A stretch of DNA of 39,264 bases from Acidobacteriota bacterium. Lineage in GTDB: Bacteria; Acidobacteriota; Blastocatellia; RBC074. Under the pieces are notes generated by a model. The model was given only the letters and a program-made list of their open reading frames with translations. It ran no database searches and was not told the origin of the DNA. The first letter of the stretch is position 1. The number at the start of each line of letters is the position of its first letter. This document shows positions 7,721 through 33,000 of this stretch, piece after piece. The position numbers were made by a program, and so were the translations under genes. The stretch is from positions 1 to 39,264 of the forward strand of contig JACPYM010000052.1 of assembly GCA_016196035.1 (NCBI GenBank), read 5' to 3'.

Positions 7721-8809
7721 TCACCTGACGACCGGTACTCCCACATAACTGAGTGGCAGGAACTGGCCATTGCCGATGTATTGCAGCTCAATCGCCGTGG
7801 ACTGCCCACCAGTCAGAGAGCCTGCTACCCCCACCGTGGTATTGCCGCCCGCTGAGGGTGCCGAGGTGTAAATCTGGCCGTTCCTGACCAGCGCGACCAG
7901 TTTGCTCCCATCGGCTGAGGAGGCGACTGAATACCAGCTTCTGTTGCTCTCGCGCGGTGTCCAACTCACGCCCGCCATGAATAAGTTCGCCCCGATGACC
8001 GACTGGCCGGCGTTCTGCGCGATCTGCCAGCCGCCCGCTCCCGCCCCTGACACCCGCATCGTGTCGCCCACGTTAGGCGCCGCTGGCAACGTAATGGTCA
8101 CCGGGCTGGCATTGGTCGCTATATAGCCGGTATTAGATTGCGCTTGTTGCGACGTGCCTGTGACGACCTGCCACTTAAAAATTCCGGGTACGTTGGTCAG
8201 CCCTGACCCGTTGCCGTTCAAGGTTCCCCCAGTTACCGTAAGACTCCCGCCAACAACGCCGTTGCCGCTGATATTGAAATTGCTGTTGGCCTGGGGCGTA
8301 GACGTGTTTTGAATGTAACTACCGCTGTTCGTGGGCAAACTCCCGATCTGTGTGCCCGACACGCAGCCCATGCAGGCTGGCGAAAGGCTATCAGCGGTCG
8401 CGGTGTTGGCGCTCTTGATGGCATACGGCGTTGCCGTAATGGGTTGGCGTGGGCCCAACGTAGTGAATGTCCCGCTGCTGGGCGGCTCGACCCCGATTTC
8501 CAGAAAGCGGTTCGCGCCTGAAAATACGCCTGCCCCGAAATCCAATTGCACGGTGAAAACACCCGCCGTCACTGTCGTATTCGAGACGACCACGGGCGTA
8601 CCCTGCTGCGTGCCAGTGCCGACAGTCGCCGTATCAAAAAGTTTGAATTGCAAATCATAATTGCCATTCGCCGGGCTGCCCGCATCAATCAATTTACCTT
8701 GGTACGTAAAAGCGGTGGTTTGCGCCCCGGCAAATGGCGCGTAGAGCGCAAAGAAAAAGGTAGCTAAGACAAGCCCGTGCTTGCGCTGCCAAATTGAATG
8801 GATAAGCAT
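7721..8809 (-). CDS. Short exported fibre paralog with a single degenerate Asp-box blade
   Basis: This 362-residue protein is the first gene of the four-gene cluster. It has a signal peptide (1-29, ending PFAGAQ), the shared first domain (about 30-131), a CxxC (CMGC, 146-149), a QANSNFNISGNG linker, and a module of about 60 residues (IFKWQVVTGTSQQAQSNTGY to NAGQSVIG) also found in the gene at 1-1973. One blade (TPRESNRSWYSVASSADGSK) follows, but its Asp-box is lost: IYTSAPSAGG replaces IYTSTDSGVSW. The last 40 residues (GGQSTAIELQYIGNGQFLPL) look like a natural ending of this family. It could be a short fibre or a cap protein. Transcription would start in the 271-bp divergent region shared with R1. 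Confidence 0.8.
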   Translation of the reverse strand: MLIHSIWQRKHGLVLATFFFALYAPFAGAQTTAFTYQGKLIDAGSPANGNYDLQFKLFDTATVGTGTQQGTPVVVSNTTVTAGVFTVQLDFGAGVFSGANRFLEIGVEPPSSGTFTTLGPRQPITATPYAIKSANTATADSLSPACMGCVSGTQIGSLPTNSGSYIQNTSTPQANSNFNISGNGVVGGSLTVTGGTLNGNGSGLTNVPGIFKWQVVTGTSQQAQSNTGYIATNASPVTITLPAAPNVGDTMRVSGAGAGGWQIAQNAGQSVIGANLFMAGVSWTPRESNRSWYSVASSADGSKLVALVRNGQIYTSAPSAGGNTTVGVAGSLTGGQSTAIELQYIGNGQFLPLSYVGVPVVR

Positions 8810-8856
8810 GGCGGCGTTTTCCCGTGATCAATCTTTAGGTTGATAGGTGCGCTTGA

Positions 8857-8899
8857 GCACAAGTCAGGCGAACGTTGTGCTGCTCGTTCTGACTTGAGC
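8857..8899. promoter_or_regulatory. Inverted repeat, possible operator
   Basis: The arms are 11 bp with one mismatch: GCACAAGTCAG at 8857-8867 and CTGACTTGAGC at 8889-8899, separated by 21 bp. It lies 48-90 bp upstream of the fibre operon start. It could be a dimer-binding site or a hairpin in the operon leader. Confidence 0.4.
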
Positions 8900-8939
8900 G
8901 TGGTTTGCTCAGGCAGCAGCACCTCAACTGCCTCGCGGT

Positions 8940-8979
8940 GTCACCCACTCAGGGATAGTGAGGCGCTTGCTTGGGTGAC
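8940..8979. promoter_or_regulatory. Inverted repeat, possible operator
   Basis: Perfect 8-bp arms GTCACCCA (8940-8947) and TGGGTGAC (8972-8979) are separated by 24 bp. The site is near the middle of the divergent region, about 100 bp upstream of R1. No T-run follows either arm, so a terminator is unlikely. Confidence 0.4.
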
Positions 8980-9053
8980 GGTGATTTTGTTGCGTTTGAC
9001 GGTGAAAACTTACGTGGTGGCGGGGGTGGGTGTCTTTCGGCTTGCTTGAAAAG

Positions 9054-9072
9054 TTTATGACCGTTTTATGAC
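9054..9072 (+). promoter_or_regulatory. Direct repeat TTTATGAC x2, 11-bp period, upstream of R1
   Basis: TTTATGAC occurs at 9054-9061 and again at 9065-9072, exactly one helical turn apart, ending eight bases before the R1 start codon. OmpR/PhoB-type winged-helix proteins commonly bind head-to-tail half-sites with this spacing, so an autoregulatory site is plausible. R1 has no clear ribosome-binding site in the same stretch. Confidence 0.4.
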
Positions 9073-9080
9073 TGCGGCTT

Positions 9081-11399
9081 ATGTCTCTTCCTGCAAAGCA
9101 TTTATATGAATTCGGGGAATTCCGGCTTGATCCCGCTGAGCGGTTATTGTTGCGCGCGGGTGAACCTTTGCCGCTGACGCCGAAGGCCTTTGAGATGCTG
9201 GTGGTGCTGGTCAGTCAGAGTGGACGCCTGCTGACCAAAGAGGAACTTATGCGCGCCGTCTGGGGTGAGGCTGTGGTTGAGGAAAACAACCTCAACAAAA
9301 ACATCGCGGCGTTGCGCAAGGCGCTGGGCGAATCTGTGAATGAGGCGGGCGAGGGACGTAAATTTATCGAAACCGTGCGCGGGCACGGCTTCCGCTTTAT
9401 GGCTCCGGTCGCCGAAATTGAAGTCGAGAGCCAGTCTGGAGTACGCCGCGCCGTCGTTTCTGCTATTCCTGCGCCAGAGCTAGAGCATGATCATGACGAT
9501 GCTATTCCACCAGCCGCGACGCGCGCTGCCCTTGCTCCGACGCTCGCAACACCACCGCCCGTCATTGAGCAAAATCACCAACCGCCAACGCTTTGGGCCA
9601 AACTTGGGAAACCAGCAGTGATGCTCAGCCTATGGCTGATTGCTGCTGCTGTAACATTCTGGTGGTTGAAAGAGCGGGTGGTAAAAACGCCTGGCGAAAT
9701 GAAGCTGATGCCACTGATCAGTGGCGGTGATATTTACTGCGCCAGCCTTTCGCCGGACGGTAAATTTTTTGTTTACGTGAACACGGATGAGGGCGGCCAA
9801 AGCTCACACCTCTGGTTGCGGCAGTTGGCAGGCGGGCAGCCCCTCGCGATTGGGCCAGTGCTCACCTTGGATCAATCCGTTCAAGGGACGACCTTTGCGC
9901 CGGATGGACAGTTCGTTTACTTCACGTTGCTCGATGCGCACGAGCCACACGGCGCGCTCTATCGTGTCTCCCTGCTGGGCGGGGCGGCGAACAAAGTGCT
10001 GGCGGAAATCGTCTCGCCCGTGGCTTTTTCACCCGATGGCCAGCGGTTGGCGTTCATTCGACGCGAACGCGCGGGCGCGCCCGCCACCAGCCTGATCATC
10101 GCCGATAGCACGGGGGGCAATGAACGTACTCTGTTGACGCGCAATGGGCCTGAGTTTGTTGGCGGGCCAAGTTGGTCGCCTGATGGCAAAGAGATCGCTT
10201 GTCAATTACTGCACGAAGCCACTCAGACGAGTGAAGCCGTGTGGACAATCATTGGTGTTGACCCGCAAAACGGTGCAACCCGCCTGTTGACGCCACAGGA
10301 ATGGAGAGGTCTTGGACGCTTCGCCTGGTTGAGTGATGGTAGCGGCCTGGTGCTGGCGGGCACCAAACCGGGCGAAGCCGGAACAGCGCGCGACCCACTC
10401 TGGTTGATCGCGCAACCCACTGGAGTTACGCGCCGCCTCACGCCCGATACAAATCGGTATTCCTATGATTCGCTCAGCGTCAGTCAGGACGGTCAAACCC
10501 TGCTGACCATTTCTCTCAATCGCCCGTCGCAAATCTGGTCAGTCCCGGTGCAGGGGCGCGGCCCGCAAACACGCTACGAAGCGCGCGATGCGGCGCCCTT
10601 AACGACCGGCAACCGGGAAGGCCTGGCGGGATTGCTCACCCTGGCTGACGGCCGCATCGTTTATGGCGCCCGCACAGGCGAGCGGATTGCCTTGTGGCAA
10701 ATGGATGCCGCTGGCAAACAGGCCAAAGAATTGACGATTGCTCCGTCTTTTCTGGAGGAAGTTGCCGCGCCGCTGGATGGCAGCTTCTTTGTCTTCGCTT
10801 CAACCTTCGCCGGGCGCGAGCACCTTTTCCGCGTTGAGTCCGATGGCGCGAATCTGCGGCAATTGACCGGTGGTGCGGCTTATGAGGTTGATTCGGATAT
10901 TTCACCCGATGGACGCTGGATCGTCTATGGCTCGCAACCCGCCTCTGGCAAATCCGAAACATCTTATCTCTGGAAAATCCCGGCAGCGGGTGGCACGCCC
11001 CAGCGTCTGACCGATTATGAAGCCGAGACACCGCACGTTTCTCCTGATGGCCAATGGATTTCTTTTCTTTATCAGGATGCTGAGACACATTTGAAATTAG
11101 GCATCATCCCGGCGTCAGTGGGCGGCGCACCTGTCAAAAGCTTCGATTTTCCCAGCCAAGCGGCTTTCAATGTGGGCAGCCAGTGGATGCCCGATGGCCA
11201 AGCCTTAAGCTACATCGTGACGAAAAAATACGTCAGTAATATCTGGGCACAACCACTTGATGGCAGTGCGCCCCACCCGCTGACCAATTTCACTTCCGGG
11301 GTGATTTACCGCTATGCCTTTGAACGCGGTGGCCAACGACTCTATGTGGCACGCGGTAACCCAATCAATGACTTACTCTTGCTCAGAGACTTCAGGTAA
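9081..11399 (+). CDS. R1: membrane-bound winged-helix regulator with PD40/TolB-like propeller
   Basis: This is a 772-residue protein. Residues 8-110 form an OmpR/ToxR-type winged helix (YEFGEFRLDPAERLL, LTPKAFEMLVVLV, the recognition-helix region NNLNKNIAALRKALG, and the wing FIETVRGHGFRFM). A Pro/Ala-rich linker leads to one membrane helix at about 178-196. The rest is a series of PD40 blades marked by SPDGK/SPDGQ/SWSPDG (for example near 225, 270, 315, 360 and in the last third). There is no receiver domain, so this is a one-component regulator of ToxR/CadC layout: DNA-binding domain in the cytoplasm and propeller outside the inner membrane. It is divergent from the fibre operon at 1-8809, its most likely target along with itself. 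The only in-frame start is the ATG at 9081, although no good Shine-Dalgarno precedes it. The signal sensed is unknown. Confidence 0.9.
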   Translation: MSLPAKHLYEFGEFRLDPAERLLLRAGEPLPLTPKAFEMLVVLVSQSGRLLTKEELMRAVWGEAVVEENNLNKNIAALRKALGESVNEAGEGRKFIETVRGHGFRFMAPVAEIEVESQSGVRRAVVSAIPAPELEHDHDDAIPPAATRAALAPTLATPPPVIEQNHQPPTLWAKLGKPAVMLSLWLIAAAVTFWWLKERVVKTPGEMKLMPLISGGDIYCASLSPDGKFFVYVNTDEGGQSSHLWLRQLAGGQPLAIGPVLTLDQSVQGTTFAPDGQFVYFTLLDAHEPHGALYRVSLLGGAANKVLAEIVSPVAFSPDGQRLAFIRRERAGAPATSLIIADSTGGNERTLLTRNGPEFVGGPSWSPDGKEIACQLLHEATQTSEAVWTIIGVDPQNGATRLLTPQEWRGLGRFAWLSDGSGLVLAGTKPGEAGTARDPLWLIAQPTGVTRRLTPDTNRYSYDSLSVSQDGQTLLTISLNRPSQIWSVPVQGRGPQTRYEARDAAPLTTGNREGLAGLLTLADGRIVYGARTGERIALWQMDAAGKQAKELTIAPSFLEEVAAPLDGSFFVFASTFAGREHLFRVESDGANLRQLTGGAAYEVDSDISPDGRWIVYGSQPASGKSETSYLWKIPAAGGTPQRLTDYEAETPHVSPDGQWISFLYQDAETHLKLGIIPASVGGAPVKSFDFPSQAAFNVGSQWMPDGQALSYIVTKKYVSNIWAQPLDGSAPHPLTNFTSGVIYRYAFERGGQRLYVARGNPINDLLLLRDFR

Positions 11400-11429
11400 G
11401 CGCTGACGAATCAGCAGCACTTACCTGAA
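11391..11429. terminator. Strong hairpin overlapping the R1 stop codon, between convergent genes
   Basis: Arms of 15 bp with one mismatch (11391-11405 and 11415-11429) enclose a 9-base loop. The left arm contains the TAA stop of R1 (11397-11399). It lies between R1 and the convergent 2778-residue gene, so it probably ends transcription from one or both sides. Neither flank has a clean T-run, so it may work as an mRNA 3' stabiliser instead. Confidence 0.6.
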
Positions 11430-11466: not shown

Positions 11467-14400
11467 CTATCGCACGCCAAACGCGGGCACAGGTATGTCG
11501 CCGCTTTGTCCCTGATTTTGGATCAGGAACGAACCATCGGTGCTGCGTTTGACGAACCACGTGCCGGAGCGCCGCCACACCGCAATGTCTGCCTTCCCAT
11601 CGCCGTCGTAATCGGCGGGCGCGGGAATATCGAAGTACGGCGCGTAGTTCGCGCCCCAGAATTGCAGGATCGGGCTGCTCGGTGTCGCGCTGGGCCGGAT
11701 GTACCAGATCGAATCCGCCCCGCGCCAAATCGCCAGATCGGCTTTGCCATCCCCGTCATAATCGGCGGGCACGGGTGTGTCGAAATACGGCGCATAACCC
11801 GCGCCCCATTGAATGCTGGTGATGGTATTTGTTGAGCTGTTCAGGATGATCCAGTTCGGTGCAGGCGCAATCGCACCGGGCCGGAAGACGGCTAGATCGG
11901 TCTTGCCATCGCCGTCGTAATCGGCGGGCACTGGAATGTCGTCCTGCTGCCCGTGGTCGACGATCATGTTCTGCCCATCACTGCTGCGCCGCACGAACCA
12001 GGTGCCGCTGCGGCGGAAGACGCCGATGTCCGTCTTGCCATCGCCGTCGTAATCGCCCGGCGTCGGGATGTCGAAATACGGCGCATAGTTCGCGCCCCAG
12101 AATTGCAGGATGGCTTGGCCGTCACTGCTCTTGCGGATGTACCAGATGCTGTCCGCCCCGCGCCAGATGGCATGATCGGCTTTGCCATCGCCGTCGTAAT
12201 CGCCGGGCACGATGTCGTCGAAATATGGCGCATAGCCCGCGCCCCATTGCTGGGTCGCGGTTGCGCCGTTGCCGCTGTTGATGACACTCCAATTCGTCAG
12301 CGGCGGTGCAGCGGTGGGACTGAAAATACTCAGATCAGTTTTGCCATCGTTGTCGAAATCGGCTTTGGCCTTGGGCCTGAAGGTCAGCGTGTAGGCGCGC
12401 GTGCCGCTGCAATTGTTCACATCGGTGGCCTGGAGGGTGAAGTTGAAGACGCCCTTGACCGCTGAGAGACCCGCGAAAAGGCCGGTTGAGCCATTCAGGG
12501 TCAAACCATTCGGCAACGCACCCGCGCTGACGCTCCAACTGATCGCGCCCGCGCCGCCGCTTTGCGTGAAGATTTGGCTATACGGCACGCCCGCGATGCC
12601 CAGCGGCACGGTGGACGGATTCACCGTAATCGTCGGACAAGTGACGGTCAGCGTGAAGCTGGCGTTGGTTTGCGCGCCGCAATCGTCCGTCGCGCGGATG
12701 GTGAGCGTGTGCGTGCCGGCGGGTGCGGCGTTGGTAAGCGTCACGGCACCCGCCGCATTGACCGAAATGGTGCCGGTGTACGTCCCCTGGCCTTGCACGG
12801 CGAGGGTGTTAATCGTGCCGTTGTCGGTGGGGCCGGTCGCTGGATTGACCGTCGTCGCACCGCCGAGGTTGACCGTGGCGTTGGCATAACTCAGCGTGGG
12901 CGGCGTATTCGCCGTGACGTTGACCTGCAAATCGCCCGTGCCGGTCAGACTACCATCCGAAACCTGGAAGCGCACCGTGCCCGCCGTCGCCGTACACGCA
13001 GCGCTCACCAAAGCCGAAATCGTACCGTTGGTATTGGTGATGCCCGTGACCGTGATGCCGGTCGCCGTGCCGCCCGCGATTTGGGTGACCGTCAAACTGC
13101 CCGCCGCTGTTTGTGCATCTGTCACCGTGCCGACTGTGACCGCCGCGCCCGCCGGACTGCCTTGCTGACGGCTGATGGCCGCCGTAGGCGTAAACGTCGG
13201 CGCAGTGTTCGGCGTCAAATTGGTCAAAGCAAAGTTGACCGCCGCTGCCGCACCCGCAGCATTCACCGTCACATTGTACGGCCCGCCAACGGTCGCATTG
13301 GCCACCGCTGTGACACTGGCCTGCCCAGCCGCAATCGTCGCCGGATTCGTGCTCAACGCCGCGCTCGCGCCCGCGCCTGGCGGTGTAAAAGTCACGCTCC
13401 CGCCATTGACCGGCTCGGCATTCGCGCTGCTCACACTGACGACGAGCGGATTGGCAAAGGCTGCGTTGGTAATGGCGGACTGGCCGCTGCCACTCACCAC
13501 GGCCAGCGTGAAGCCGCGCGATTCATACGCGCCGATGTCGGTCGCCGTTTGTTGCGGACGCGCGATGTTGCGTTGATCGGTGGTCAGCGTGCCGCCATTC
13601 ACCAGCGTGCTGGTAGCAACTGTCGCTCCGCCTGCTCCCGTGCCAGTCAACTGGGGTTGATTGGCTACACCCAGCGTCCCGCCGAAAGTCACGGTGAAGA
13701 CATTGCCCGACTGGGTCACACTTACCGAGCCGCCCGCGCCTCCGATGGTTGAGAGCGCATTCAAGGCCGCTTGCACCTGGGCGGCGGTGGCATTGAATGC
13801 CAGTGCTGGGCTGGTGGTCGGGCCATTGAAGGTCAGCGTAAAAGTGCCCGCCGCACCGCTGACCGTGACCGTCTGTATCTCTGCTATTGTGGCAGGCCCG
13901 CCCGTGTTGATGGCCGGACTGCCGGGCAACAGCGCGTGCGTTGGCGTCGGGCCGCCGTAATTGCCCAGCGGCGCCAGCAGCGGATTGGTGTTGATCTGAT
14001 CGCCGGTTCCGTTCAACAAGCCGCCGCCGTTGTCGCTCGCCAGATTATTGCCTTGCGAAACGACGCTGGCGTTCGTGCCGGATTTGAAGAGATTCGACGG
14101 GGAATTATTGGCCACGATGGTGTTCTGCAACGTGGTTGTGGCGGGGCCTCCTTGATCATTCGTCCTGATGCCGCCTACGGACGGGCTGGTGTTGCCGGTG
14201 ACGGTGCAGTTGAGCATGGTGAGCGATGTCGCGGGTCCGCCAAAATTTATATTGGCGATGCCACCGATAACATTTGTTGCGGTATTGCCGCTGATCGTGC
14301 TGTTGGTCAACGTTGCCGTAGCGCCGCCGCCAACACCTTGATTGACCACTGCGCCATCAACTGCGGTATTGCCACTGATCGTGCTGCGGTTAATGGTCAA

Positions 14401-17400
14401 CGTACCGCCGTTGTTCACTACGCCTGCCCCATTGCCCAGCGAAGTGTTGGCGGTGATGGCGCATTCGGTAATGGTCAGGTTACCGGCACTGCGAACCCCG
14501 CCCCCGAAACTAGCTCTGCCGTTGGAGACGGTCAGGCCTTGCAGGCTGACGACGATGCCTGCATTGACATCGAAAACAACATAATCGCCGCCCGTATCGC
14601 GGCGCACGGTCAGATTGTTCGCCCCGCTGGCGTTGACGATGGTGACGTTATCAGCAAGCACGGGCAGCGCGCTCGCCAGATTGATCGTTTGCGGGCCAGC
14701 GGGCAGATTGAAAGTAATGTTGTCCGTGCCCACACTGAGATTGGCGTCCAACAGTGCTTGCCGCAATGAACCCGCGCCTGCGTCGTTGGTATTGATGACG
14801 ACCAGCGGATTCGGCACCAGTTCAAAAGCGCCGATGTCTGTGGCAGCGCCCTGCGGACGCGCGACGCCGCGTTGATCGGTGGCGGGCGCACCTGTGTTGT
14901 TGCCCGCGTTGAGGGCTGGACTGCCCGCAGGCAGCGCATGGGTTTGGGTCGGGCCGCCATTGCTGGCGAGTACGGCCAGCAGCGGGTTGGTGTTGAGCAG
15001 ATCGCCCGCCGCCGCCGTCAGGCTGTTATCGGAGAGCAAATTATTGCCCAATGAAGTGACTGTCCCGCCTACATCCTGCCGCACTTGCGGGTTGCTGTTT
15101 CCGGCGACGATGGTGTTTTTCAGCGTGATGTTGGCATTGCCCGCGCCGAACTTTCCGCTGTAAAGGCCGCCGCCATTGGTATTGTTGGGGACGGTGTTGT
15201 TGGCGATCGTGCAATTGAGCAGGTTGACCGTGGTGTCGAAATCTCCTGAAGAGTTATCAATGCCGCCACCGGTCTGTACGCCATTGGCTGCGGTATTGCC
15301 GCTGATGGTGCAATTGGTCAGGGTGGCGGTCGCTGGGGTGCTGGAGCCCAGGTTCCACAGACCGCCTGTCGCACCTCCCGTCGAACTGTTGCCGCTGATC
15401 GTGCAACCGGTCATCGTCAGTGTCCCGCTGTTGTACATGCCGCCGCCGCCATTGGTGCTTGTGTTGCCAGTAATCACGCAGTTGCTGACGGTCAACGTGC
15501 CAGCGTTGAAAATGCCTCCGCCGTCTACATTGCCATTCGTCATGGTCAGTCCGGAGAGACTGACGGTCGTTCCGCTATTGATGGTGAAGATGCGGTAATT
15601 ACCGCCGGTATCGCGCCGCACGGTCAGCAGGTTTGCGCCGGGGCCGTTGAGGGTCAGGCTGCTCGTAATATCGGGCAAGGCGCTCGCCAGATTGATCGTG
15701 CGCGCCGTGCCGAAAAACACCGACTCGAACTGAATCGTATCCGCGCCCGCGTTGGCATTCGCGTCCAGCAAGGTCTGACGCAGACTGCCCGCGCCAGCGT
15801 CGTTCGCATTGGTCACGATGATCGCCTCATCGTTTTGGATCGTGCCGAGACCTTGCGGATCACCCAGCACGGCATTCGTCGGATTGGTCAAGTTGACGAA
15901 GAAGGTTTCGCTCGGCTCAAACACCGTGTCGCCGTTGATAGTGACGACGATGGGTTGGCTGGTAACGCCGGGATTGAACGTAAGTGTGCCGCTCGTGGTG
16001 ACGTAATCGCTGCCCGCCGTGGCTGTGCCGTTGGCGGTGGCGTATTGCACCGTCACCGTCTGAGCGCTGGCGGCGGAGAGTGTGACGGTGAAGGTCGCCG
16101 TGCTGGTGCCCGCGTTGCCTTCCGCCACTGTTATGTCGTTGATGATGAGGCCGGGCAGGGGCAGGCTTTGCGCTTCAAACGCGCCGATGTCGGAATCGTT
16201 GCCGTTGCTGGCCGGCAGGATGCTGCCGATGTCGAACGGGCGCATCAGTCCGCGTTGGTCGGTGGTGACACCCGCAGCTAAGCTGCCTTTATCCAGTGCC
16301 GGACTGCCCAACAGCAAGGCGTGCGTCGGTGTCCGGCCGCCATTATCAGCCAAAAGGCCGAGCCAGGCGTTGATGGGCGCACCGGCCGTCCCGACGATGT
16401 TCCCATTCACGCCGTTGGTGAAGCCGCTGCTGCCGTCGCTGTCCAGGTTGTTACCCAGCAAGGTGAGTGTGGCGTTGCTGGTAGTGAAATTCGGGCCGGT
16501 GTTGGCCGCGACCAGCGTGTTCTTGAGCTGCGTAGTGGCGCTCACCCCGTTGTTGCTGGTCACGATGTTCCCGATGCCGCTGGTGGTGCTGACATTGCCG
16601 CTGACGGTGCAGTTGGTCAGCGTCAGCGCAGAGGTTTGTCCTGTATTTGTCGCGTTCAGGATAGCGCCCGGATAGGTGCCTGCCGTATTGCCGGAAACCG
16701 TGCAGTTGGTCAGACTGCCCGTGCCGTTCTGAAAATTCAACGCTGCTTGAAATGTCGCCGTGTTATTGCTGACCGTGCTGTTCGACATTATCAGCGTGCC
16801 GCTAGCGGCCACACCGCCGCCATTACCGGCGTTATTACTGGCGATCAGACTGTTGTTAATGGAGAGTGAACCGCCTGAAGAGATTCCCCCACCGAATGCC
16901 ATACCAGAGCTATTGCCTGAGACGATGCAATTCGCCAGGTTGAGCGTGCCGGCATTCAAAATTCCGCCGCCGGGTTGCCCGCTGGGTGATTTGCCATTGC
17001 TGATCGTCAGGTTGCTGAGACTGACAGTTTGACCCGCGTTGATCGTGAAGATGCGGTAATCGCCACCCGTATCGCGGCGCACCGTCAGCAGGTTCGCGCC
17101 GGGGCCGTTGATGTTCATGCTGGTCGTGAGGCTTGGCAAGACGGTTGCCAGATTGATCGTTTGCGCCGTGTTGAAGAGCGCCGAAAAGTTGATCACGTCC
17201 GCGCCCGGCCCCGTGGCGTTGGCGTCGGTGATGGCCTGGCGCAGGCTGCCCGCGCCCGCGTCGTCGGCGGTGGTGACGAGGAAGGCGTCGTCGTTCAGGA
17301 TCGTGCCCAGCCCCTGCCCGTCGGCAATTGTGGCGTTGACCGGACTCGATAAATTGACGAAGAAGGTTTCGTTGACTTCGCCCGTCGTATCGCCGTTGAC

Positions 17401-19803
17401 CTGTATCGTAGCCGTCTTACTCGTCTCGCCCGGATTGAAGGTAAAAGTGGTGCCGATAATCGGTGTGGTGTAATCAGAAGGAGCCGTGGCCGTGCCGTCC
17501 GCCGTGGCGATATTAACCGTCGTGGTCGCGCCGCTCGCCGGGGCAAGCGTGATCGTGAAGGTGAACGCGGTCGTGCCGCTGTTGCCTTCGTTGAGCGTCA
17601 CGTCGTTGATGGACAGGGTCGGCAGGGTATCGTCGTTGGTGATTGTGCCGACGCCCTGATTATCGGCAAGCGTCGCACCGCCGGTCACGTTCGACAAATT
17701 GACGAAGAAGGTTTCGTTCGTTTCAAACAGCGTCTCGCCGACGACGGAAACCGCAATGGTTTTGCTGGTTTCACCCGCGTTGAAGGTCAGCGTGCCGCTG
17801 GTTGCGGTGTAATCGCTGCCCGCCGTGGCCGTGCCGTCCGCCGTGGCGAAATTGACCGTGACGGGCGAACCGGCAGCGGCGGAAAGCGTCACGGTGAACG
17901 TGAAATTCGTCGTGCCCGCAGCGCCTTCAGCTTGCGTCACGTCGTTGATTGAAATGGTCGGAGCCGGCGTGCCGAGCAATTCAACCTCAGAAAACTGCAT
18001 GGAGTTTGCAGTCGCGCCGTCTCGGACGCTCGCCACTATCAAGCGGTATGAGCTAAATGCATTGGTGTTGGAGAAGTTGACCACTGCTCCCAGAGTGTTG
18101 CGCCCCGGATCTGTCGCCAGTCCTGTCACGCCGCTATAAATCGTCGTCCATGTCGAGTTGAGCGTCGTCGTCGGGTTGGCGCTGTTTGTCCCTTCGATCG
18201 TTACGGTCAGAGGGTCTCGCTCGGGTGCGTCGTTAGCCGTATTGAAACGCAACCCGTCAACTACAGTCAGAGGCCCCTGGGTCGGTGCGGTCACGATAAA
18301 CCCGACTCCCGTCTTGCCAAAATTAAGATACTTGCTGGCAGCACTAAAATCGTTATCAATCGCCGCACTGGGCGGCTCAGCGGCCGGGTAGTTGTTTGCT
18401 CCCGCCACTGTTCCAACGGTTGACGCGCTGGAAGTGGGGCTTCCGACAGTCGCCGCGATGCCAACAATGGGATCCCCAGGCGCAGTCACATCGCTGGTGA
18501 ATGCCTCGTATGCACCGATGTCGGAATCGTTGCCGCCGCTGGCCGCAGGAATGCTGCCGATGTTGAACGGGCGCGTCAGCCCACGCTGGTCAGTCGTGAC
18601 ACCCGCGACAGAACTGCCTTTATCCAGCGCCGGACTGCCGCCCAGCAAGGCGTGTGTTGCCGTCGTGCCGCCGTTGTTGGCGAGCGGGCCGAGCAACGGT
18701 GGCGCGGTGATGTCGGTGCCTTGCGTGAGGAAGCCGTTGCCGTTGTCGCTCAGGTTAAAGCCCTGCGAAGTGATCGTGGCGACCCCACCGCTCGCCGTTA
18801 ACGCGACCAGATTCGCGCCGGTGCTGTTGGCAATGATCGTGTTGCGCAATGTGGCCGTAGCCGTCGTTCCCGCGCCGATGGCGCCCACACGAACGCCGCC
18901 GGTATCCGCCGCGCCGGCGTTATTGGCAAACGTGCAATTGGTAATTTGCAGCGCACTGGTTCCGGCAAAGCCGAGGTTGAAAATTCCGCCGCCCGCCCCC
19001 GCGCCGGTCGCCGTGTTGCCGCTCACCGTGCAGTTAGTCAACGTGAGCAACACACTGATGGAGGACCCAGTCTCAAAGGAGATACCGCCGCCGCGATCCT
19101 GCGAAGTATTTCCGCTAATCGTGCAACCTGAGAACGTCCCATTGGCATTGCTGAGTAAGACTCCGCCACCAATATTGCCCACCGACACGTTGCCGCTGAC
19201 ATCGCAATTGGTCAACGTCAAGTTGCTGGCGCTAAAAATACCACCGCCACTCGTCCCGCGCCCGTTGCTGATGGTCATCCCGCTGAGCGTGATATTCAAC
19301 CCGCCGCCCGGAATGTTGAAGATGCGGAAGTCCGCCGCCCCGTCGTTGCGCCGCACCGTGAGCAAGTTTGCGCCGGAGCCGTTGATCGTCAGACCCTGTG
19401 AAATGTCGGGCAGCACGCTGGTCAGATTGATCGTGCCGTTCACGCTGAAGGTGATCGTGTCCGCGCCGCTGCCCGCCACGCAATCGGTCGAGCCGGATTG
19501 ATTGTCGCCGTTGGCATTGAGCAGCGCTTCGCGCAGCGTGCATTGCCCGTTATTGGCCGGCGCGCCGTCCGCCAGACTGTTGACGATGATGGCCGCTGCC
19601 GGAGCGCTGGGAATCAGGGGCTTGGGCGTCCCCAGATTTGCGGAGGACGGATTCGTGGGGGACGGTTTCTGCTGGGCCGCTGGCGGGCTGGCTGGGCCAG
19701 ACGCCGCGCGGACGGCTTGGAAAAGTTGCAAGCTCAGTAATGCGCCGCCGAGTATGAGCAACGTGAGCAATGTCGAAAGCGCCAGTCTACGGATGTACGA
19801 CAT
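11467..19803 (-). CDS. Giant surface protein: CSLREA/beta-helix blocks, Calx-beta, discoidin-like domain, FG-GAP propeller
   Basis: The protein is 2778 residues from the ATG at 19803, chosen because GGAGGA lies just upstream; an in-frame ATG 14 codons earlier has none. A signal or anchor helix spans about 5-30. The CSLREA-type motif CTLREALLNANGD lies near 85. Four right-handed beta-helix blocks follow (about 70-440, 838-1205, 1326-1655, 1663-1975), with CTISGNTA-type rungs and closing motifs SPALDKGS...TDQRG...DIGAFE. Between them lie a discoidin-like segment (about 460-612) and three Calx-beta domains (starting near 614, 729 and 1213, xINDVTxxEG). Ig-like and cadherin-like domains cover about 2100-2470. 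An FG-GAP/VCBS propeller with six D-x-DGDGK-x-D calcium-type loops ends the protein (about 2475-2778, ending PVPAFGVR). It is head-to-head with R2. A role as adhesin or matrix protein is likely; the partner is unknown. Confidence 0.88.
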   Translation of the reverse strand: MSYIRRLALSTLLTLLILGGALLSLQLFQAVRAASGPASPPAAQQKPSPTNPSSANLGTPKPLIPSAPAAAIIVNSLADGAPANNGQCTLREALLNANGDNQSGSTDCVAGSGADTITFSVNGTINLTSVLPDISQGLTINGSGANLLTVRRNDGAADFRIFNIPGGGLNITLSGMTISNGRGTSGGGIFSASNLTLTNCDVSGNVSVGNIGGGVLLSNANGTFSGCTISGNTSQDRGGGISFETGSSISVLLTLTNCTVSGNTATGAGAGGGIFNLGFAGTSALQITNCTFANNAGAADTGGVRVGAIGAGTTATATLRNTIIANSTGANLVALTASGGVATITSQGFNLSDNGNGFLTQGTDITAPPLLGPLANNGGTTATHALLGGSPALDKGSSVAGVTTDQRGLTRPFNIGSIPAASGGNDSDIGAYEAFTSDVTAPGDPIVGIAATVGSPTSSASTVGTVAGANNYPAAEPPSAAIDNDFSAASKYLNFGKTGVGFIVTAPTQGPLTVVDGLRFNTANDAPERDPLTVTIEGTNSANPTTTLNSTWTTIYSGVTGLATDPGRNTLGAVVNFSNTNAFSSYRLIVASVRDGATANSMQFSEVELLGTPAPTISINDVTQAEGAAGTTNFTFTVTLSAAAGSPVTVNFATADGTATAGSDYTATSGTLTFNAGETSKTIAVSVVGETLFETNETFFVNLSNVTGGATLADNQGVGTITNDDTLPTLSINDVTLNEGNSGTTAFTFTITLAPASGATTTVNIATADGTATAPSDYTTPIIGTTFTFNPGETSKTATIQVNGDTTGEVNETFFVNLSSPVNATIADGQGLGTILNDDAFLVTTADDAGAGSLRQAITDANATGPGADVINFSALFNTAQTINLATVLPSLTTSMNINGPGANLLTVRRDTGGDYRIFTINAGQTVSLSNLTISNGKSPSGQPGGGILNAGTLNLANCIVSGNSSGMAFGGGISSGGSLSINNSLIASNNAGNGGGVAASGTLIMSNSTVSNNTATFQAALNFQNGTGSLTNCTVSGNTAGTYPGAILNATNTGQTSALTLTNCTVSGNVSTTSGIGNIVTSNNGVSATTQLKNTLVAANTGPNFTTSNATLTLLGNNLDSDGSSGFTNGVNGNIVGTAGAPINAWLGLLADNGGRTPTHALLLGSPALDKGSLAAGVTTDQRGLMRPFDIGSILPASNGNDSDIGAFEAQSLPLPGLIINDITVAEGNAGTSTATFTVTLSAASAQTVTVQYATANGTATAGSDYVTTSGTLTFNPGVTSQPIVVTINGDTVFEPSETFFVNLTNPTNAVLGDPQGLGTIQNDEAIIVTNANDAGAGSLRQTLLDANANAGADTIQFESVFFGTARTINLASALPDITSSLTLNGPGANLLTVRRDTGGNYRIFTINSGTTVSLSGLTMTNGNVDGGGIFNAGTLTVSNCVITGNTSTNGGGGMYNSGTLTMTGCTISGNSSTGGATGGLWNLGSSTPATATLTNCTISGNTAANGVQTGGGIDNSSGDFDTTVNLLNCTIANNTVPNNTNGGGLYSGKFGAGNANITLKNTIVAGNSNPQVRQDVGGTVTSLGNNLLSDNSLTAAAGDLLNTNPLLAVLASNGGPTQTHALPAGSPALNAGNNTGAPATDQRGVARPQGAATDIGAFELVPNPLVVINTNDAGAGSLRQALLDANLSVGTDNITFNLPAGPQTINLASALPVLADNVTIVNASGANNLTVRRDTGGDYVVFDVNAGIVVSLQGLTVSNGRASFGGGVRSAGNLTITECAITANTSLGNGAGVVNNGGTLTINRSTISGNTAVDGAVVNQGVGGGATATLTNSTISGNTATNVIGGIANINFGGPATSLTMLNCTVTGNTSPSVGGIRTNDQGGPATTTLQNTIVANNSPSNLFKSGTNASVVSQGNNLASDNGGGLLNGTGDQINTNPLLAPLGNYGGPTPTHALLPGSPAINTGGPATIAEIQTVTVSGAAGTFTLTFNGPTTSPALAFNATAAQVQAALNALSTIGGAGGSVSVTQSGNVFTVTFGGTLGVANQPQLTGTGAGGATVATSTLVNGGTLTTDQRNIARPQQTATDIGAYESRGFTLAVVSGSGQSAITNAAFANPLVVSVSSANAEPVNGGSVTFTPPGAGASAALSTNPATIAAGQASVTAVANATVGGPYNVTVNAAGAAAAVNFALTNLTPNTAPTFTPTAAISRQQGSPAGAAVTVGTVTDAQTAAGSLTVTQIAGGTATGITVTGITNTNGTISALVSAACTATAGTVRFQVSDGSLTGTGDLQVNVTANTPPTLSYANATVNLGGATTVNPATGPTDNGTINTLAVQGQGTYTGTISVNAAGAVTLTNAAPAGTHTLTIRATDDCGAQTNASFTLTVTCPTITVNPSTVPLGIAGVPYSQIFTQSGGAGAISWSVSAGALPNGLTLNGSTGLFAGLSAVKGVFNFTLQATDVNNCSGTRAYTLTFRPKAKADFDNDGKTDLSIFSPTAAPPLTNWSVINSGNGATATQQWGAGYAPYFDDIVPGDYDGDGKADHAIWRGADSIWYIRKSSDGQAILQFWGANYAPYFDIPTPGDYDGDGKTDIGVFRRSGTWFVRRSSDGQNMIVDHGQQDDIPVPADYDGDGKTDLAVFRPGAIAPAPNWIILNSSTNTITSIQWGAGYAPYFDTPVPADYDGDGKADLAIWRGADSIWYIRPSATPSSPILQFWGANYAPYFDIPAPADYDGDGKADIAVWRRSGTWFVKRSTDGSFLIQNQGQSGDIPVPAFGVR

Positions 19804-20043
19804 GATTTTTCCTCCTGCGTGGATTGGGAAAGAGAAGGCAGCCATATTTGCCGAAGAGCAGTCCTGTCCGCCGTCCGGTTTGGGATAAAACTTTGACTCA
19901 CACCCGCCGAAAATTCATAATGCCCGGCGAGTCTCATCACTAAGTTGCAACTTGTTACAATTGCCTTCGGATCATTACCGTGTAGCCCCGAAAAAGTCTT
20001 GAATGGCAGTGGAATTTCTCTGGAAAAAATCTGGAATACCGTA
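19804..20043. promoter_or_regulatory. Divergent control region between the 2778-residue gene and R2
   Basis: These 240 bp lie between two genes transcribed away from each other. They contain the GGAGGA ribosome-binding site of the minus-strand gene and the TGGAA repeats before R2. A TTG at 19945 opens the R2 frame 33 codons early, but that stretch does not look like the family and has no ribosome-binding site. Confidence 0.6.
19999..20036 (+). promoter_or_regulatory. TGGAA direct repeats with exact 11-bp period upstream of R2
   Basis: TGGAA occurs at 20010, 20021 and 20032, with a one-mismatch copy TTGAA at 19999, all exactly 11 bp apart. The last two are longer (TCTGGAA). The final copy sits where the ribosome-binding site should be, seven bases before the ATG at 20044. 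The spacing fits head-to-tail binding by an OmpR-type winged-helix protein, and a protein bound here would also block translation start or early transcription. Confidence 0.45.
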
Positions 20044-27847: not shown

Positions 27848-29608
27848 CTACGGGGCCAGCGTGGCGTCCCTTTGCGGCGCGTCAACATGCCCCGCTTGCG
27901 CCAGGATGGCTTGATAGCGCGCGTCATTGCGTAAGGAGCGCAAGCGGTGATCGAGGGGGAGATGCGAAATCCATTCCGAGCGTTCCTTGACCGCTTCTTC
28001 AAGAAATTGCAGCGCCGCGGCACGGTCGCCCAGTCCGGTATGCACGACTGCCGAGTGATAGGGCGAAACGTAATGCTGTTGGCGGCGCGCTTCGAATTCA
28101 TGCAGCACCTGCTCGGCTTCGGCCCGCTGCCCCAGGCGCCCGTACAAAAAACCGAGCGTGGCGAAGCTGACGAGATTTTCACCGCGTGCAATGGCGGCCT
28201 GTGCGCTTTCTACCGCTGCTTCGAGTTCGCCCTGCGCTTCACAGATAAACGCCTGAATCGCATAGGTCACGGGAAAATATGGAAACTGAGCAAGCAACTC
28301 CCGGCAAAACGCGGCGGCTTCGTCCTGGCGGTCAGCAAAGTAATAAACCCAAGCGAGCAAGGTGCCGGGGTAGGCGAGGTGCGGCCCCAGTTCCCACGCC
28401 CGTTCGGCTAGTCTGACCCCTTCGTCAACTTTCCCCCGAATCAGCATCAAGCGACCCAGCCAGTTATGCGCAAAAACGTTGTCCGGCCCGTACTTGATCG
28501 CCTCCCGCAAATGCTGGTCAGCCAAATCCCAATTCCATTCCCAGAGCAGCAGCGGCGCCGCGCGGCTGGCGTGCGCGTGCGAAGAGCACGGATCGAGTTC
28601 CAGCGCGCGTAACGCGGCGGCCAGCGCCTTGGGCATACCTTCATTGGGCGCGTACACGGCCGGCCCAAACGCACACCGCACTGCCCAGATGTCGGAAATG
28701 CCCACCCAGGGTTCGGCGTAGTTCGGATCAAGCGAGAGCGCGTAGGTGTATTCATCCAACGCCTCATTCAAGACGCCGTATTGCGTACCGAAAAGGTAAG
28801 CGCCCCGGCGATAGCACGCCACCGCTTCCGGATGCGGTTGCCGGATGGGGCGCTGGGCATAATCGGCGGGCAAGCTGAGACCGAGTTTTTCAACCAACTG
28901 CCGCGCGATCTCTTGTTCGATTGCGGCGGAATCAGCCGCGTTCACACTGAACTTGCCTGACCACAAAACGCTGGCCGATTGCGCTTCGATCAACTGGACG
29001 CGCAAGTCATCCAATTGGCCCGCTTGCCCGGTCGCCGTTAAATGCCCGGTCAAGACCAGGCCGGTGCGTTGCTCGCGGGCGATTTGCACCGCGTTCGGCT
29101 GCCAGCCCGGTTGTAAATACTGAGGCGCAATCTCTCTGAGTTCCAGGCGTGTGAGCGTGCGCAGGTGATGAATGATCCCCAAGGCCAAATGATACCCCGC
29201 CAGCCGCAACCGCTCCGCAGCGTGAAAGAAGCCAGGTGGGCTGACAAACGGCAGGATGGAGCGCGCGCGCCAGCGCGTGGCCGCCAACCCGCCCGCCAAG
29301 CGCACCGGCAAGGTCAATTGATAGCTGCGCGGCCCGCTGGTCGAAACAAGCACGCCCGCGCCCAGCGCCTTGCGCAAACGGATGATTTGCTGGTGCAGGT
29401 TGTTGTTCTCCACGACGCGCCCCGGCCAGGCTTTGCTTCTGAGTTCGGCGCTGCTGAGCACGGCTGGGCCGTGTTTGAGCGTGTGTTCGAGCAAGACCCG
29501 CAACACCTTGATGGCCTGCTCCGGCAGTTCAAGCTGTCGGTTCCGGCTGTCATAAACAATCGCGTTCTCCAAGCGGAACGGCCCGAATTCAATAACCTTG
29601 TCCTGCAT
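27848..29608 (-). CDS. R3: soluble winged-helix regulator with FlgO/TolB-N-like domain and TPRs
   Basis: This is a 586-residue protein. The winged helix spans 5-101 (EFGPFRLENAIVYD, NNLHQQIIRLRKALG, SYQLTL wing). Residues about 115-245 (RSILPFVSP..., AREQRTGLVLTGHL, DLRVQLIEAQSASVLWSGKF, IEQEIARQLVEKL) match the FlgO/TolB-N-like domain that links winged helices to TPRs in CadC- and cyclase-type regulators. From about 261 to the end are TPR-like helical repeats (NEALDEYTYALSLDPNYAEP, AALRALELDPCSSHAHA). I see no membrane helix, unlike R1 and R2, so it is probably cytoplasmic. GGGAG precedes the ATG. The M36 gene follows on the same strand after 215 bp, and the giant gene at 30034 is divergent. 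Either or both may be its targets. The signal is unknown. Confidence 0.88.
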   Translation of the reverse strand: MQDKVIEFGPFRLENAIVYDSRNRQLELPEQAIKVLRVLLEHTLKHGPAVLSSAELRSKAWPGRVVENNNLHQQIIRLRKALGAGVLVSTSGPRSYQLTLPVRLAGGLAATRWRARSILPFVSPPGFFHAAERLRLAGYHLALGIIHHLRTLTRLELREIAPQYLQPGWQPNAVQIAREQRTGLVLTGHLTATGQAGQLDDLRVQLIEAQSASVLWSGKFSVNAADSAAIEQEIARQLVEKLGLSLPADYAQRPIRQPHPEAVACYRRGAYLFGTQYGVLNEALDEYTYALSLDPNYAEPWVGISDIWAVRCAFGPAVYAPNEGMPKALAAALRALELDPCSSHAHASRAAPLLLWEWNWDLADQHLREAIKYGPDNVFAHNWLGRLMLIRGKVDEGVRLAERAWELGPHLAYPGTLLAWVYYFADRQDEAAAFCRELLAQFPYFPVTYAIQAFICEAQGELEAAVESAQAAIARGENLVSFATLGFLYGRLGQRAEAEQVLHEFEARRQQHYVSPYHSAVVHTGLGDRAAALQFLEEAVKERSEWISHLPLDHRLRSLRNDARYQAILAQAGHVDAPQRDATLAP

Positions 29609-29652
29609 CGTGATGCTCCCTTGATATAGGCAGGCAGAAATTTTTTGCGCTG

Positions 29653-29668
29653 TTCAGCAGTTATTCAG
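29653..29668 (-). promoter_or_regulatory. CTGAA direct repeat, 11-bp period, upstream of R3
   Basis: Read in the R3 direction, CTGAA occurs twice at exactly 11-bp spacing (complement TTCAG at 29653-29657 and 29664-29668), 45-60 bp upstream of the R3 start. It is short and would mean little alone. Its interest is that R1 and R2 also carry 11-bp-spaced direct repeats. Confidence 0.3.
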
Positions 29669-29867
29669 GATTTTTCTGATTAAAGGGTACCGGCAATTTT
29701 TTCGAATCCGCACAAGCGCCCGTTTGGACGGTGTTGTAGGGAACCAACCAACGGCGCTCCGGAATTTAGAATAGGCGGCGCGCGCCGTCAATCGAATGCT
29801 CAACCCATGCCCTAAGGCTTCCGAAACTCACACGGTCATGGGGTCCGAAGGCATTTAGTTTAAGACT

Positions 29868-29923
29868 GCCGATTCAGCCGCCCGGTATTTGCGACGGGCG
29901 ACCCACATGCAGGGTGAATCGGC
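29868..29923 (+). promoter_or_regulatory. Nested inverted repeat, possible structured leader or operator
   Basis: Perfect outer arms GCCGATTCA (29868-29876) and TGAATCGGC (29915-29923) enclose a second perfect pair CGCCCG (29879-29884) and CGGGCG (29895-29900) with a 10-base loop. Together they could fold as one stem with an internal bulge on the 3' side, 110 bp upstream of the giant gene. I do not recognise a known riboswitch. A regulator-binding palindrome is the alternative. Confidence 0.45.
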
Positions 29924-30033
29924 CGCCGGCAATTCGCACAAGTCTTCAACCAAAACAACCTGCGGCGGACGTGGCGGGCAGGGCGGCCAGCGGTGTGTCC
30001 GCGCTTCAGTGACAGCGCAAAGGAGAAGTCATC

Positions 30034-33000
30034 ATGCAGCACCAAACCAGCTTTCAATCTTCTTACAGTCAGCCTTCCCGTGGCAGTCAGCCTTCGCGGG
30101 GGCCGCGTTGCAGCAGCCAATTGTGGCGCACGGTGCGGCGTTGGTGTGTTTACCTGTTGGTGGCGGGGGCGTTTGGCTGTGCGGCGCAATTGCTGTTGTG
30201 GGGCGTTGGCGCGCAGCATTTGGCGGCGGCTGATGCCATGCGCCCAGGCGCAAGGCAGGCGTTGGCGGCAGACGTGACCGCGCGTGATTATCGCAGGCTC
30301 TTCGATTTTGGCACGCGGCATGACTTGGATTGGTTGCTTGGCAGCTACGCCATGCCCGCGACTGTCTTTACCGACTACATCGTCACCACCAACGCCGACA
30401 GCGGGCCGGGCAGCTTGCGGCAGGCGATTATGGACGCCAACGTCCATTCGGGCCCAGACCTCATCAAGTTCAATATCCCTGACAACCTGCCCAAAACCAT
30501 CGCGCTACAGTCCGCGTTGCCGGCGCTCTTCAGCCCGGTGACGATAGACGGGACGACGCAGCCCGGTTACCGCGGCGCGCCGATAATTGAACTCAATGGC
30601 ACAAACGCGGGCCTGAACGTGGATGGGCTGGGCATCACGGCGAGCGGCAGCACGATTCGCGGATTGGTGATTAACCGTTTCAATCGTAACGGCATCGGCG
30701 TCGGCTACTTTCTGAGTAACATCCTGATTGAAGGAAACTACATCGGCACGGACGTCACTGGTGACCAAGATTTTGGCAATGCGGGCGCAGGCATCCATCT
30801 GGATTCGCCCGCGACTGTGGACGGCACGGCGGCAGCCGGGCGCAATGTGATTTCGGGCAACAACGGCAACGGCATCACGATCAACGGTTCTTATGGCGGT
30901 GGCGGTTCAATCATCAAGGGGAATTACATTGGTCTGAATGCCGCGGGGACGAGCGATCTCGGCAATACGCTGACGGGCATTTCGATCGTCAATTTTTCTG
31001 CCAATAACGTAATTGGTGGCACGGCAACCGGCGCGGGCAACGTCATCTCAGGTAATGATGTAGACGGCATTTGCGTCTGCACCAGCGGCACGACGAACAC
31101 GACCATTCAGGGCAATAAGATCGGCACGGATGCGGCAGGCACGCAGCCCCTCGGCAATACGCGCAACGGGATTGCCGCGATTGGCTCCGGCATCATCATC
31201 GGCGGCACGAGCAACACAACGCCCGGTGGCCTTTGCACGGGCGCGTGCAATCTGATCTCCGGCAATGGCGGCGACGGCATCGGCGACCCGCCGTCCAATG
31301 TTATTGGTGGTCACGGCGCGCTGACCATCAAGGGCAATTACATCGGCACTGACATCAATGGCACGGTGCGGCTGGGGAATGGCGTCAACGGCATTCGCCT
31401 CTCGGGTGGTCAAGGCACGTTTATCGGCGGCACTGCGGCGGGCGAGGGCAACTTGATCTCGGCCAATGGCGGCAACGGTCTCGACCTGGAAGGCGGCACG
31501 ACCAACGGCCCAACCGTGCAAGGTAACCTGATCGGCACGGACAAGAACGGTCAGCCCGGTAACCCAACAAGCTTGGGGAATACCGCCAACGGCATCAAAG
31601 TTGTGCAAAGCAACGTGACGATTGGCGGCACAACCGCAGCGGAACGCAATGTCATTACCAGCAATGGCGAAAACGGCATACAAGTCAGTGGCAGTTCCAC
31701 CATTCGGGTGGCGCTGCGTGGCAATGCGATTTCCGGCAATACCAAACTCGGCATTGACCTCGCGCCCGCGCTGCCTGGCGGCACGGTCACGCCCAACGAC
31801 GCAACCGACAATGATAGCGGCCCGAATCTGTTGCAGAATTTCCCGGTGCTTGATGCGCTGACGCAACCCTGTATTGTGACCGGTACGCTGCCCGGCGGCG
31901 TGCTGTCATCACAGGTCACGCTCGATTTTTACGCGAACCCCACGTGCGACGCCTCAGGCAATGGCGAAGGTGAGGTACCTCTCGGCTCAACGCAAATCAC
32001 GTTGACCTCAGCCAATACCGCTTTTAGCTTTGCCATCCCCTCGGAAAAGTTAATGGGCCAGTCTGTCATTACGGCGACGGCGACGGATGCTAACGGCAAT
32101 ACCTCAGAGTTTTCCGCCTGTCGCACGATTCCCACGCCATTGATTACGACCCAACCGGCCAGCCAAAGCGTTTGCCCCGGCGCGAACGTCAGCTTTACCG
32201 TCGCGGCCAACAACGCAGTGAGTTATCAATGGCGCAAAGATAACGTAGACATCAGCAACGCAACGAGCGCGACGTTGACGTTGAACAGCGCGACGGCCGC
32301 GAATGCGGGCGCTTATACTGTCGTTGTCATAGGGCTTTGCGATACCTCGACGACATCCAATAGCGTTTTGCTCAGCCTCAAGACGCCAGTCGGCATTGCC
32401 ACGCCACCTGCCGCAGAGACGGTTTGCAGCAGCGAGCCAGTGACGTTTTCCGTCACGCCCAACGGCGACGGACCTTACACCTATCAATGGCGCAAAGGTG
32501 GCGTGAACATCGGCGGTGCGACGAGCGTGAGTTACACCATTGCGGCCACGACCGTCGCCGCGGCCGGCTCCTATGACGTAATTGTGGGCGGGGCGTGCGG
32601 CAGTCCGGTGACTTCGTTGGCGGCGGCGTTGACGGTCAACACCGCTCCGCTGGTCACGACGCCGCCAACGAATCAATCTGTGATGGCAGGCGCGAATGCG
32701 ACCTTCGCCGCCGCCGTCAATGGCACGCCCGCCCCGGCAGTGCAATGGGAAGCCGCGCCGCCCGATTCCAGTTTCAGCGAAATTCCCGGTGCGACCAGCC
32801 CGACGCTGACCTTGAGCAATGTGATAATGACGCTCAACGGTTACCGTTATCGCGCCGTGTTCACCAACGATTGCGGTCAGGTAAACAGCAACGCCGCCAC
32901 GCTGACTGTCACGCCCGCCGGGCCACAAACCATTATCGTCAGCACGACAGCGGATGAGGACAACACCGGACCAGCGACCTGTTCATTACGCGAAGCGCTC

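Follow-up and report, generated by a model that had tools for sequence, protein, structure and literature searches.

Tandem-repeat arrays between ToxR-like regulator genes and divergent exported-protein operons in Acidobacteriota

Three genes for winged helix-turn-helix (wHTH) regulators, here called R1, R2 and R3, lie on a 39,264-nucleotide stretch of DNA from an Acidobacteriota bacterium (contig JACPYM010000052.1, assembly GCA_016196035.1), and each is head-to-head with the gene of a secreted protein. Is this a repeated module and, if so, what links each regulator to its neighbour? The stretch, called the window below, is a complete contig (C52) of a genome of 9.59 Mb in 139 contigs. An earlier note had pointed out the three divergent pairs, and a check of open reading frames (ORFs) and translations gave the same starts and strands. 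Sequence comparison makes it likely that R1 and R2 belong to the one-component regulators of the ToxR/CadC kind and work locally, acting on PhoB-like tandem sites and most likely activating the adjacent exported-protein operon.

R1 (9081..11399, + strand, 772 residues) is composed of a wHTH domain, a transmembrane segment and a PD40 propeller. R2 (20044..22392, + strand, 782 residues) has a wHTH domain, a linker, a transmembrane segment and a propeller, as judged from Pfam and an AlphaFold2 model. Both match PF00486 at 63-64 bits, above the cutoff (R1, 63.2 bits), and both also match PD40 (R1, 55.6 bits). A hydropathy count finds one hydrophobic segment in R1. The R2 model (mean predicted local distance difference test score (pLDDT) 79.5) places the winged helix at about residues 1-110, a region of low confidence at 112-203, a helix at 201-225 and beta strands at 242-779. 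The propeller on a ToxR-like membrane anchor proposed in the earlier note agrees with this model, which places a helix after the winged helix and the propellers beyond it. Foldseek matches this model to double propellers such as LRP6, and to TolB, with low TM-scores to the query (0.2-0.3). The TolB equivalog cutoff of TIGR02800 (343) is reached neither by R2 (246 bits) nor by R1 (98 bits). The domain order of R1 and R2 fits a C-terminal domain outside the cytoplasmic membrane, and the long linker would let membrane-bound R2 reach DNA. ORFs of about 900-1070 residues (contigs C23, C55, C90 and C113 of this genome, G000, and in relatives) match R1 over the propeller only, from about residue 174, and thus represent the same kind of sensor on another N-terminal part.

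R3 (27848..29608, - strand, 586 residues) carries a weak wHTH domain and TPRs. Its PF00486 match is borderline (22.2 bits against a cutoff of 26.2; 26.6 with its neighbours in frame), and the hydropathy count calls no transmembrane segment. The Pfam scan found no receiver-domain family in any of the three. The TPR part of R3, and only this part, matches many larger ORFs in relatives (often 800-950 residues).

The regulator and its partner are separated by 271 nt for R1, 240 nt for R2 and 425 nt for R3. These gaps were compared with those of other sensor-type wHTH genes, from this genome and from two further sets. The class set comprises 32 stretches from class relatives, each around a gene that resembles R1, R2 or R3. 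The phylum set comprises the best 79 loci of 140 matches in a contig scan with a two-sequence winged-helix alignment, and represents one winged-helix sub-type; its records are labelled Acidobacteria or a group within it, except for one labelled only 'bacterium'. The two sets overlap, since some stretches, such as L096 and L175, seem to come from one and the same record. Pooled tests exclude identical upstream regions; some near-identical pairs remain.

Exact 7-mer repeats with a period of 11 are present in 35 of 96 divergent intergenic regions of sensors, against 11 of 158 background divergent regions, with a lesser excess at 10 and 22. When anchored on the winged helix, they are found upstream of 39/99 divergent sensors (in 40 dinucleotide shuffles, 2.0 on average and at most 5). 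Relaxed tandems (at least 6/7 matches, in a 75-nt slot) accompany 78 of 125 sensors, compared with 9.0 +/- 3.5 and at most 17 in shuffled sequences. The array adjoins the regulator: the exact tandem ends a median of 8 nt before the start codon (37 scored cases), and a Shine-Dalgarno-like 4-mer is absent from the last 20 nt in 31 of the 37 tandem cases, while it is present in 442 of 1099 other genes. No excess of a second array was seen near the partner, where the 25.7 kb of the far part contained 11 sequences with repeats. The motif model learnt the half-site TTTCTCAAA and, on held-out sequences, recovers it in 29/49 divergent sensors, 14/26 same-strand sensors and 4/138 background regions. 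We have dropped the claim that exact repeats are confined to divergent sensors (39/99 versus 0/26), because the model finds the array in those 14 same-strand cases.

In the window, four units at 11-bp spacing can be read by eye before R1 (9033..9072, + strand: TCTTTCG at 9033, GCTTGAA at 9044, TTATGAC at 9055 and again at 9066), ending 8 nt before the start codon, and four before R2 (19997..20036, + strand: TCTTGAA at 19997, AGTGGAA at 20008, TCTGGAA at 20019 and at 20030), ending 7 nt before it. The exact tandems TTATGACN4TTATGAC (R1) and TCTGGAAN4TCTGGAA (R2) each occur once in the 9.6 Mb genome. Each has one further place with one mismatch (between convergent genes and inside a gene, respectively); reversed control patterns give 1 and 0, and these further places look like chance. 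R3 has only a relaxed tandem (29652..29678, - strand; TCCTGAA/TGCTGAA, 6/7, period 11, with a third CAGAA), which lies farther from the start codon.

The array also has a fixed relation to a predicted promoter on the partner strand. A sigma-70-like -10 element (TA...T) is most frequent at a distance of 40-44 nt from the tandem (15 occurrences in this bin against a mean of 2.6 per bin, over 56 divergent sites). Upstream of the tandem lies a further unit, unit 1, with the pattern GTC[CT]T[TCG][AC][GA], which is found in 45/99 divergent sensors, 8/26 same-strand sensors and 1/138 background intergenic regions. Beyond unit 1, TA...T occurs at a spacer of 18-19 in 21 of the 45 and at any other spacer at most once; A2 and T6 of the -10 are kept at one register in 33/45 (other registers, 0-9), or in 28/40 non-redundant elements. 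This fixed distance therefore makes unit 1 coincide with the -35 position of a putative promoter aimed at the partner. By this register, the predicted -10 for the fibre operon opposite R1 is TAAGTT (9007..9012, - strand), upstream of unit 1, and that for the 2778-residue gene opposite R2 is AATGAT (19971..19976, - strand; A2 and T6 kept, first base A). A standard-hexamer sigma-70 scan of the R1-fibre gap found no site; the -10 becomes visible only when relatives are aligned.

Do the regulators bind these arrays? When all variable winged-helix columns were tested against all half-site positions, the strongest covariation was between alignment column 73, which belongs to the recognition-helix segment (NLTQNIS), and half-site position 5 (z 11.4; next pair, 6.4). 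For the test of this pair the register was set without regard to position 5, which was possible for 63 of the 78 tandem sites; the remaining 15, including that of R1, have no clear register. Position 5 is C in 27/37 sites whose regulator has Q at column 73 and in 1/26 with other residues (p 1.6e-8). The other residues have their own preferences (R with G, 7/7; H with G, 2/2; K with G, 3/4; V with A, 6/8). With one representative per 70% cluster p is 6.6e-7, and comparison of matched nearest relatives gives 11 to 0, with 8 ties. R2, with R at column 73 and G at position 5, agrees with this code. On the strength of the covariation the regulators are taken to bind their own arrays.

The mechanism suggested by these data would be as follows. 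A cytoplasmic winged helix of the OmpR/PhoB type would be followed by a long linker, which is probably flexible, a single transmembrane helix and, on the outside, a beta-propeller that probably reports the state of the envelope or the extracellular space. R1 and R2 would each bind up to four half-sites of one orientation, 10-11 bp apart, in the gap common to the divergent pair, as repeats, position and helix-base covariation suggest. The distal unit would occupy the -35 of the partner-directed promoter, the -10 of which lies, statistically and across relatives, at a fixed distance. Since this is a PhoB-type activation geometry, the bound regulator would most likely switch on the exported-protein operon. 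As the array adjoins the regulator's start codon, it probably also controls the regulator itself. R3 has the same layout with only the relaxed tandem and may work alike through a different site.

The pho box, located at the -35 of its target promoter, consists of 7-bp direct repeats with a spacing of 11 bp, and this arrangement is predicted for R1 and R2, with the relaxed tandem only for R3. Tandem DNA binding is reportedly the subject of studies on PhoB, PmrA and OmpR, to judge from their titles. Unlike PhoB and OmpR, these regulators have no receiver domain and are not part of a two-component system, their array adjoins their own start codon and the exact tandems of R1 and R2 are single-copy in the genome. 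With the ToxR/CadC-like transmembrane transcription regulators (PMC10269533) they share an N-terminal OmpR-type winged helix, one transmembrane helix and a C-terminal sensor domain, which is probably outside the membrane; they differ in their TolB/WD40-like propellers and in a systematic pairing with exported-protein genes across the phylum. The accessible text of PMC10269533 describes such regulators as widespread, with a slight enrichment in Acidobacteriae, and the words 'divergent', 'PD40' and 'propeller' are absent from its main text as available. CadC binds two head-to-head sites, according to the part of PMC5430869 at hand, whereas the sites here are tandem and of one orientation. Enteric co-component systems are the subject of PMC9214523, as far as its available part indicates. 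No description of a regulator-partner system was found in the accessible part of the Solibacter genome paper (PMC3174227), and a search of open-licence papers found no described system of this kind. R1 and R2 would be a variant of the known ToxR/CadC kind, and the new part is the element between the genes. R3 resembles soluble HilA/CadC-type regulators in its N-terminal wHTH and TPR region (NCBIfam PRK12370 over residues 278-560) but scores only 48.9 bits against a cutoff of 589, with a weak wHTH and no unit 1. Because R3 lacks a transmembrane segment by hydropathy and has only a relaxed tandem, R1-R3 do not form one uniform module.

The array could instead serve repression, the regulator covering the -35 of the divergent operon until a signal releases it. 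Unit 1 does overlap the -35 position. However, the array continues upstream of the promoter, in the direction opposite to the -10, as do the sites of PhoB-type activators. We therefore regard repression as unlikely, although still the strongest competitor to activation.

Somewhat less probable again is that R1 and R2 are autoregulators only, the array controlling the regulator alone with the divergent neighbour not a target. The array is indeed fixed to the regulator start (the median of 8 nt) and not to the partner boundary (interquartile range 163-461 nt), and it is also found at same-strand sensors. Two observations argue otherwise: the partner-strand -10 lies at a fixed distance from the array, and part of the partner operons are inherited with their regulators. 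When 95 regulators were compared, 14 of the 31 pairs above 50% identity had partner operons that are homologous, as did 3% of all pairs. For example, the nearest R2 relative (G006, 56% identity) faces a homologous gene of 1347 residues. The R1 relatives on contig C72 of its own genome (56%) and in G008 (55%) both lie opposite fibre operons, as does a 39% relative from another family (G035), and the fibre partners of R1 and of its C72 paralogue are 53% identical over a 157-column stretch. The whole 10.6 kb of contig C72 (L042) is a diverged copy of the left half of the window, with the R1 paralogue, the opposite fibre operon and the end of a converging FG-GAP gene.

Several observations weigh against local activation by R1 and R2. 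The geometry alone fits a repressor as well as an activator. Homologous partners are lacking in 17 of the 31 close regulator pairs, and 9 of the 11 fetched R1-like stretches are not opposite fibre genes. R1 (K with G) agrees with the code, but its register score is too low for inclusion in the count, and R3 (Q with G) contradicts it. The half-sites of R1 and R2 deviate from the consensus, with low motif scores (4.3 and 7.5; R3, 11.9) relative to a threshold of 10.6, set with a model for which half the data served as training set. The motif is almost as frequent in same-strand sensors as in held-out divergent ones (14/26 and 29/49), and six of the same-strand sensors, out of eight that have unit 1, also have an outward -10 at a spacer of 18-19; the array is therefore not specific to divergence. 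The comparison of 45/99 with 1/138 for unit 1 is not independent, because the pattern was written after these sequences had been seen, and unit 1 may be nothing more than a -35 box. Finally, a strict signal-peptide rule gives no significant excess of exported partners in the class relatives (3/22 versus 4/55, p 0.4). The same-strand sensors with unit 1 are L097, L105, L109, L116, L133, L155, L160 and L164. In L097 and L160 the gene caller missed a divergent ORF; the remaining cases may drive an unannotated transcript.

All seven non-regulator genes of the window read as secreted-type (a crude script test flagged five, the other two having starts called too far downstream). The window by itself is weak evidence, because any divergent partner in it had to be secreted; the case rests on genome-wide and phylum-wide counts. 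The genome has 36 PF00486 genes, which fall by size into 24 sensor-type and 12 response-regulator-type genes. For each of the 33 that lie outside the window, up to 20 kb of surrounding sequence was analysed, with genes called by a purpose-written script. Without filtering, 20 of the 24 sensor-size genes are divergent from their upstream neighbour (exceptions: L051, L059, L062 and L063). A filter (a winged-helix model hit near the N-terminus and at least 330 residues, with genes below 130 residues hopped in neighbour calls, and contig-edge genes, duplicates and gaps above 1500 nt excluded) gives 20/21, against 65/300 background genes of the same loci; L051, L062 and L063, none divergent, fail the filter and would return the figure to 20/24. 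One of the 20, L061, was counted past a 61-residue ORF antisense to a copy of the ZR gene described below. The partner is exported-type in 16/20 cases versus 26/65 (p 0.002) and has at least 1000 residues in 7/20 versus 2/65 (p 4e-4). A stricter signal-peptide rule gives 10/20 sensor partners against 7/63, and 2/32 in eight arbitrarily chosen regions of the genome.

It is very improbable that this reflects a tendency of any transcription factor of the genome to diverge from its neighbour. TetR and LysR genes are divergent in 7/13 cases, compared with the 20/21 above, and in this small control only 2/7 have an exported-type partner, against 16/20; response-regulator-type PF00486 genes are divergent in only 1/12 (2/12 by nearest neighbour without hopping small genes). 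Local composition, in which a contig packed with large secreted genes makes the triple meaningless, draws on those seven secreted-type genes and on one of them, a peptidase gene, not being head-to-head with a regulator, but it is scarcely credible and is refuted as a full explanation, since the enrichment persists without the three window genes (17/18 divergent; exported-type 14/17 versus 26/65, p 0.002; at least 1000 residues 5/17 versus 2/65, p 0.004) and throughout the phylum.

In the class set, 22/31 sensors are divergent against 55/242 background genes, with an exported-type partner by the loose rule in 17/22 versus 20/55. Phylum-wide, the figures are 57/75 against 178/571 (p 1e-13), with exported-type partners in 41/57 versus 64/178 (p 3e-6; strict rule, 22/57 versus 22/178). 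The repeated regulator-exoprotein module suggested earlier is thereby borne out, and the tabulation of divergent neighbours against background that the same note had proposed supports both divergence and exported partners. It does not support giant partners phylum-wide: a length of at least 1000 residues, which is enriched in class relatives (6/22 versus 3/55, p 0.014) as in the window's own genome, is found in 1/57 versus 2/178 and was rejected as a defining feature. Nor is the partner always very large, as had been claimed, the gene adjacent to R1 encoding only 362 residues (the next three, 874, 948 and at least 657). To diverge from an exported-type gene is thus the general pattern, and giant partners characterize this genome and its class relatives. 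When 85 of the 92 listed partners (the three of the window apart) were scanned against Pfam and NCBIfam, no single class emerged; the commonest Pfam signs are carboxypeptidase-regulatory-like domains and TPR, with seven members each.

Many sensors face, as first gene, a small accessory gene, ZR (Zn-ribbon/BldC-like). It encodes about 90 residues with an invariant Cys-Cys-His-Cys set and a MerR-like HTH. All seven hits in the genome (contigs C5, C10, C11, C18 and C33; two of the seven copies contain a stop) are head-to-head with a sensor, and there is no hit within the window. ZR occurs in 23 of 38 genomes searched, at 77 places. Neighbours were analysed at 35 of these (L213-L247; mostly the best-matching per genome, with this genome's own included): a divergent wHTH gene lies within about 600 nt in 28 and about 940 nt away in one, one is at a contig edge and five have none. 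The ZR model (pLDDT 89) has BldC and phage Xis as top folds, with a weak Foldseek E of 0.006. Some members match HTH models of Pfam and NCBIfam (at E 0.01, HTH_17 in 8/16, an excisionase model in 4/16 and BldC in 3/16). The predicted winged helix matches these small MerR-like proteins; ZR differs in its invariant Cys-Cys-His-Cys and in being tied to wHTH sensor genes. BldC binds direct repeats, according to the available part of PMC5859096.

A more speculative extension, which we consider unlikely, would be a phylum-wide set of private switches, in which a separate membrane-anchored regulator serves every exported protein or operon and is insulated by the one-residue/one-base code. The propeller would watch the cognate product in the envelope and feed back to the array, and ZR, where present, would be made first from the operon and compete on the same direct repeats as a brake. 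Acidobacteriota dominate many soils and, to our knowledge, few of their transcriptional switches are known. If the main reading, local regulation through the array, is right, the sequence of many Acidobacteriota loci would reveal the regulator, its binding site and half-site code, the target promoter and the target gene, and regulatory links could therefore be predicted individually. The same reading would suggest how about twenty paralogous regulators stay apart in one bacterium, and provide a handle on the timing of the production of very large surface proteins.

The remaining window genes are as follows. The R1 partner is the first of at least four fibre-type genes (7721..8809, - strand, 362 residues), and its N-terminal module TTAFTYQGKL is common to the next three. 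These are the second (4870..7494, - strand, 874 residues), with an S74 chaperone domain (PF13884), the third (1986..4832, - strand, 948 residues), without a family in the Pfam scan, and the fourth (3..1973, - strand, at least 657 residues), cut by the contig end. The R2 partner (11467..19803, - strand, 2778 residues) has CSLREA, choice-of-anchor Q and Calx-beta domains and an FG-GAP C-terminus. The R3 partner (30034..39264, + strand, at least 3077 residues, cut by the contig end) has CSLREA, Ig-like and FG-GAP regions. An M36 fungalysin-type secreted peptidase gene (22605..about 27632, - strand; PF02128, 311.5 bits; ATG start with AAGGAAA upstream) also encodes a large secreted protein but has no regulator head-to-head with it; R3 lies upstream of it, and R2 is its tail-to-tail neighbour. 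The peptidase and the 2778-residue protein have a common FG-GAP C-terminal module (window positions 22605-23700 and 11467-12700; 65% identity over a 411-column alignment), and both end in PVPAFGVR. FG-GAP repeats also occur at the end of the R3 partner, where they are cut off at the right contig edge. The contig ends fall inside a fibre gene (left, position 1) and inside an FG-GAP repeat region (right, 39264), and both breaks are probably an assembly limit.

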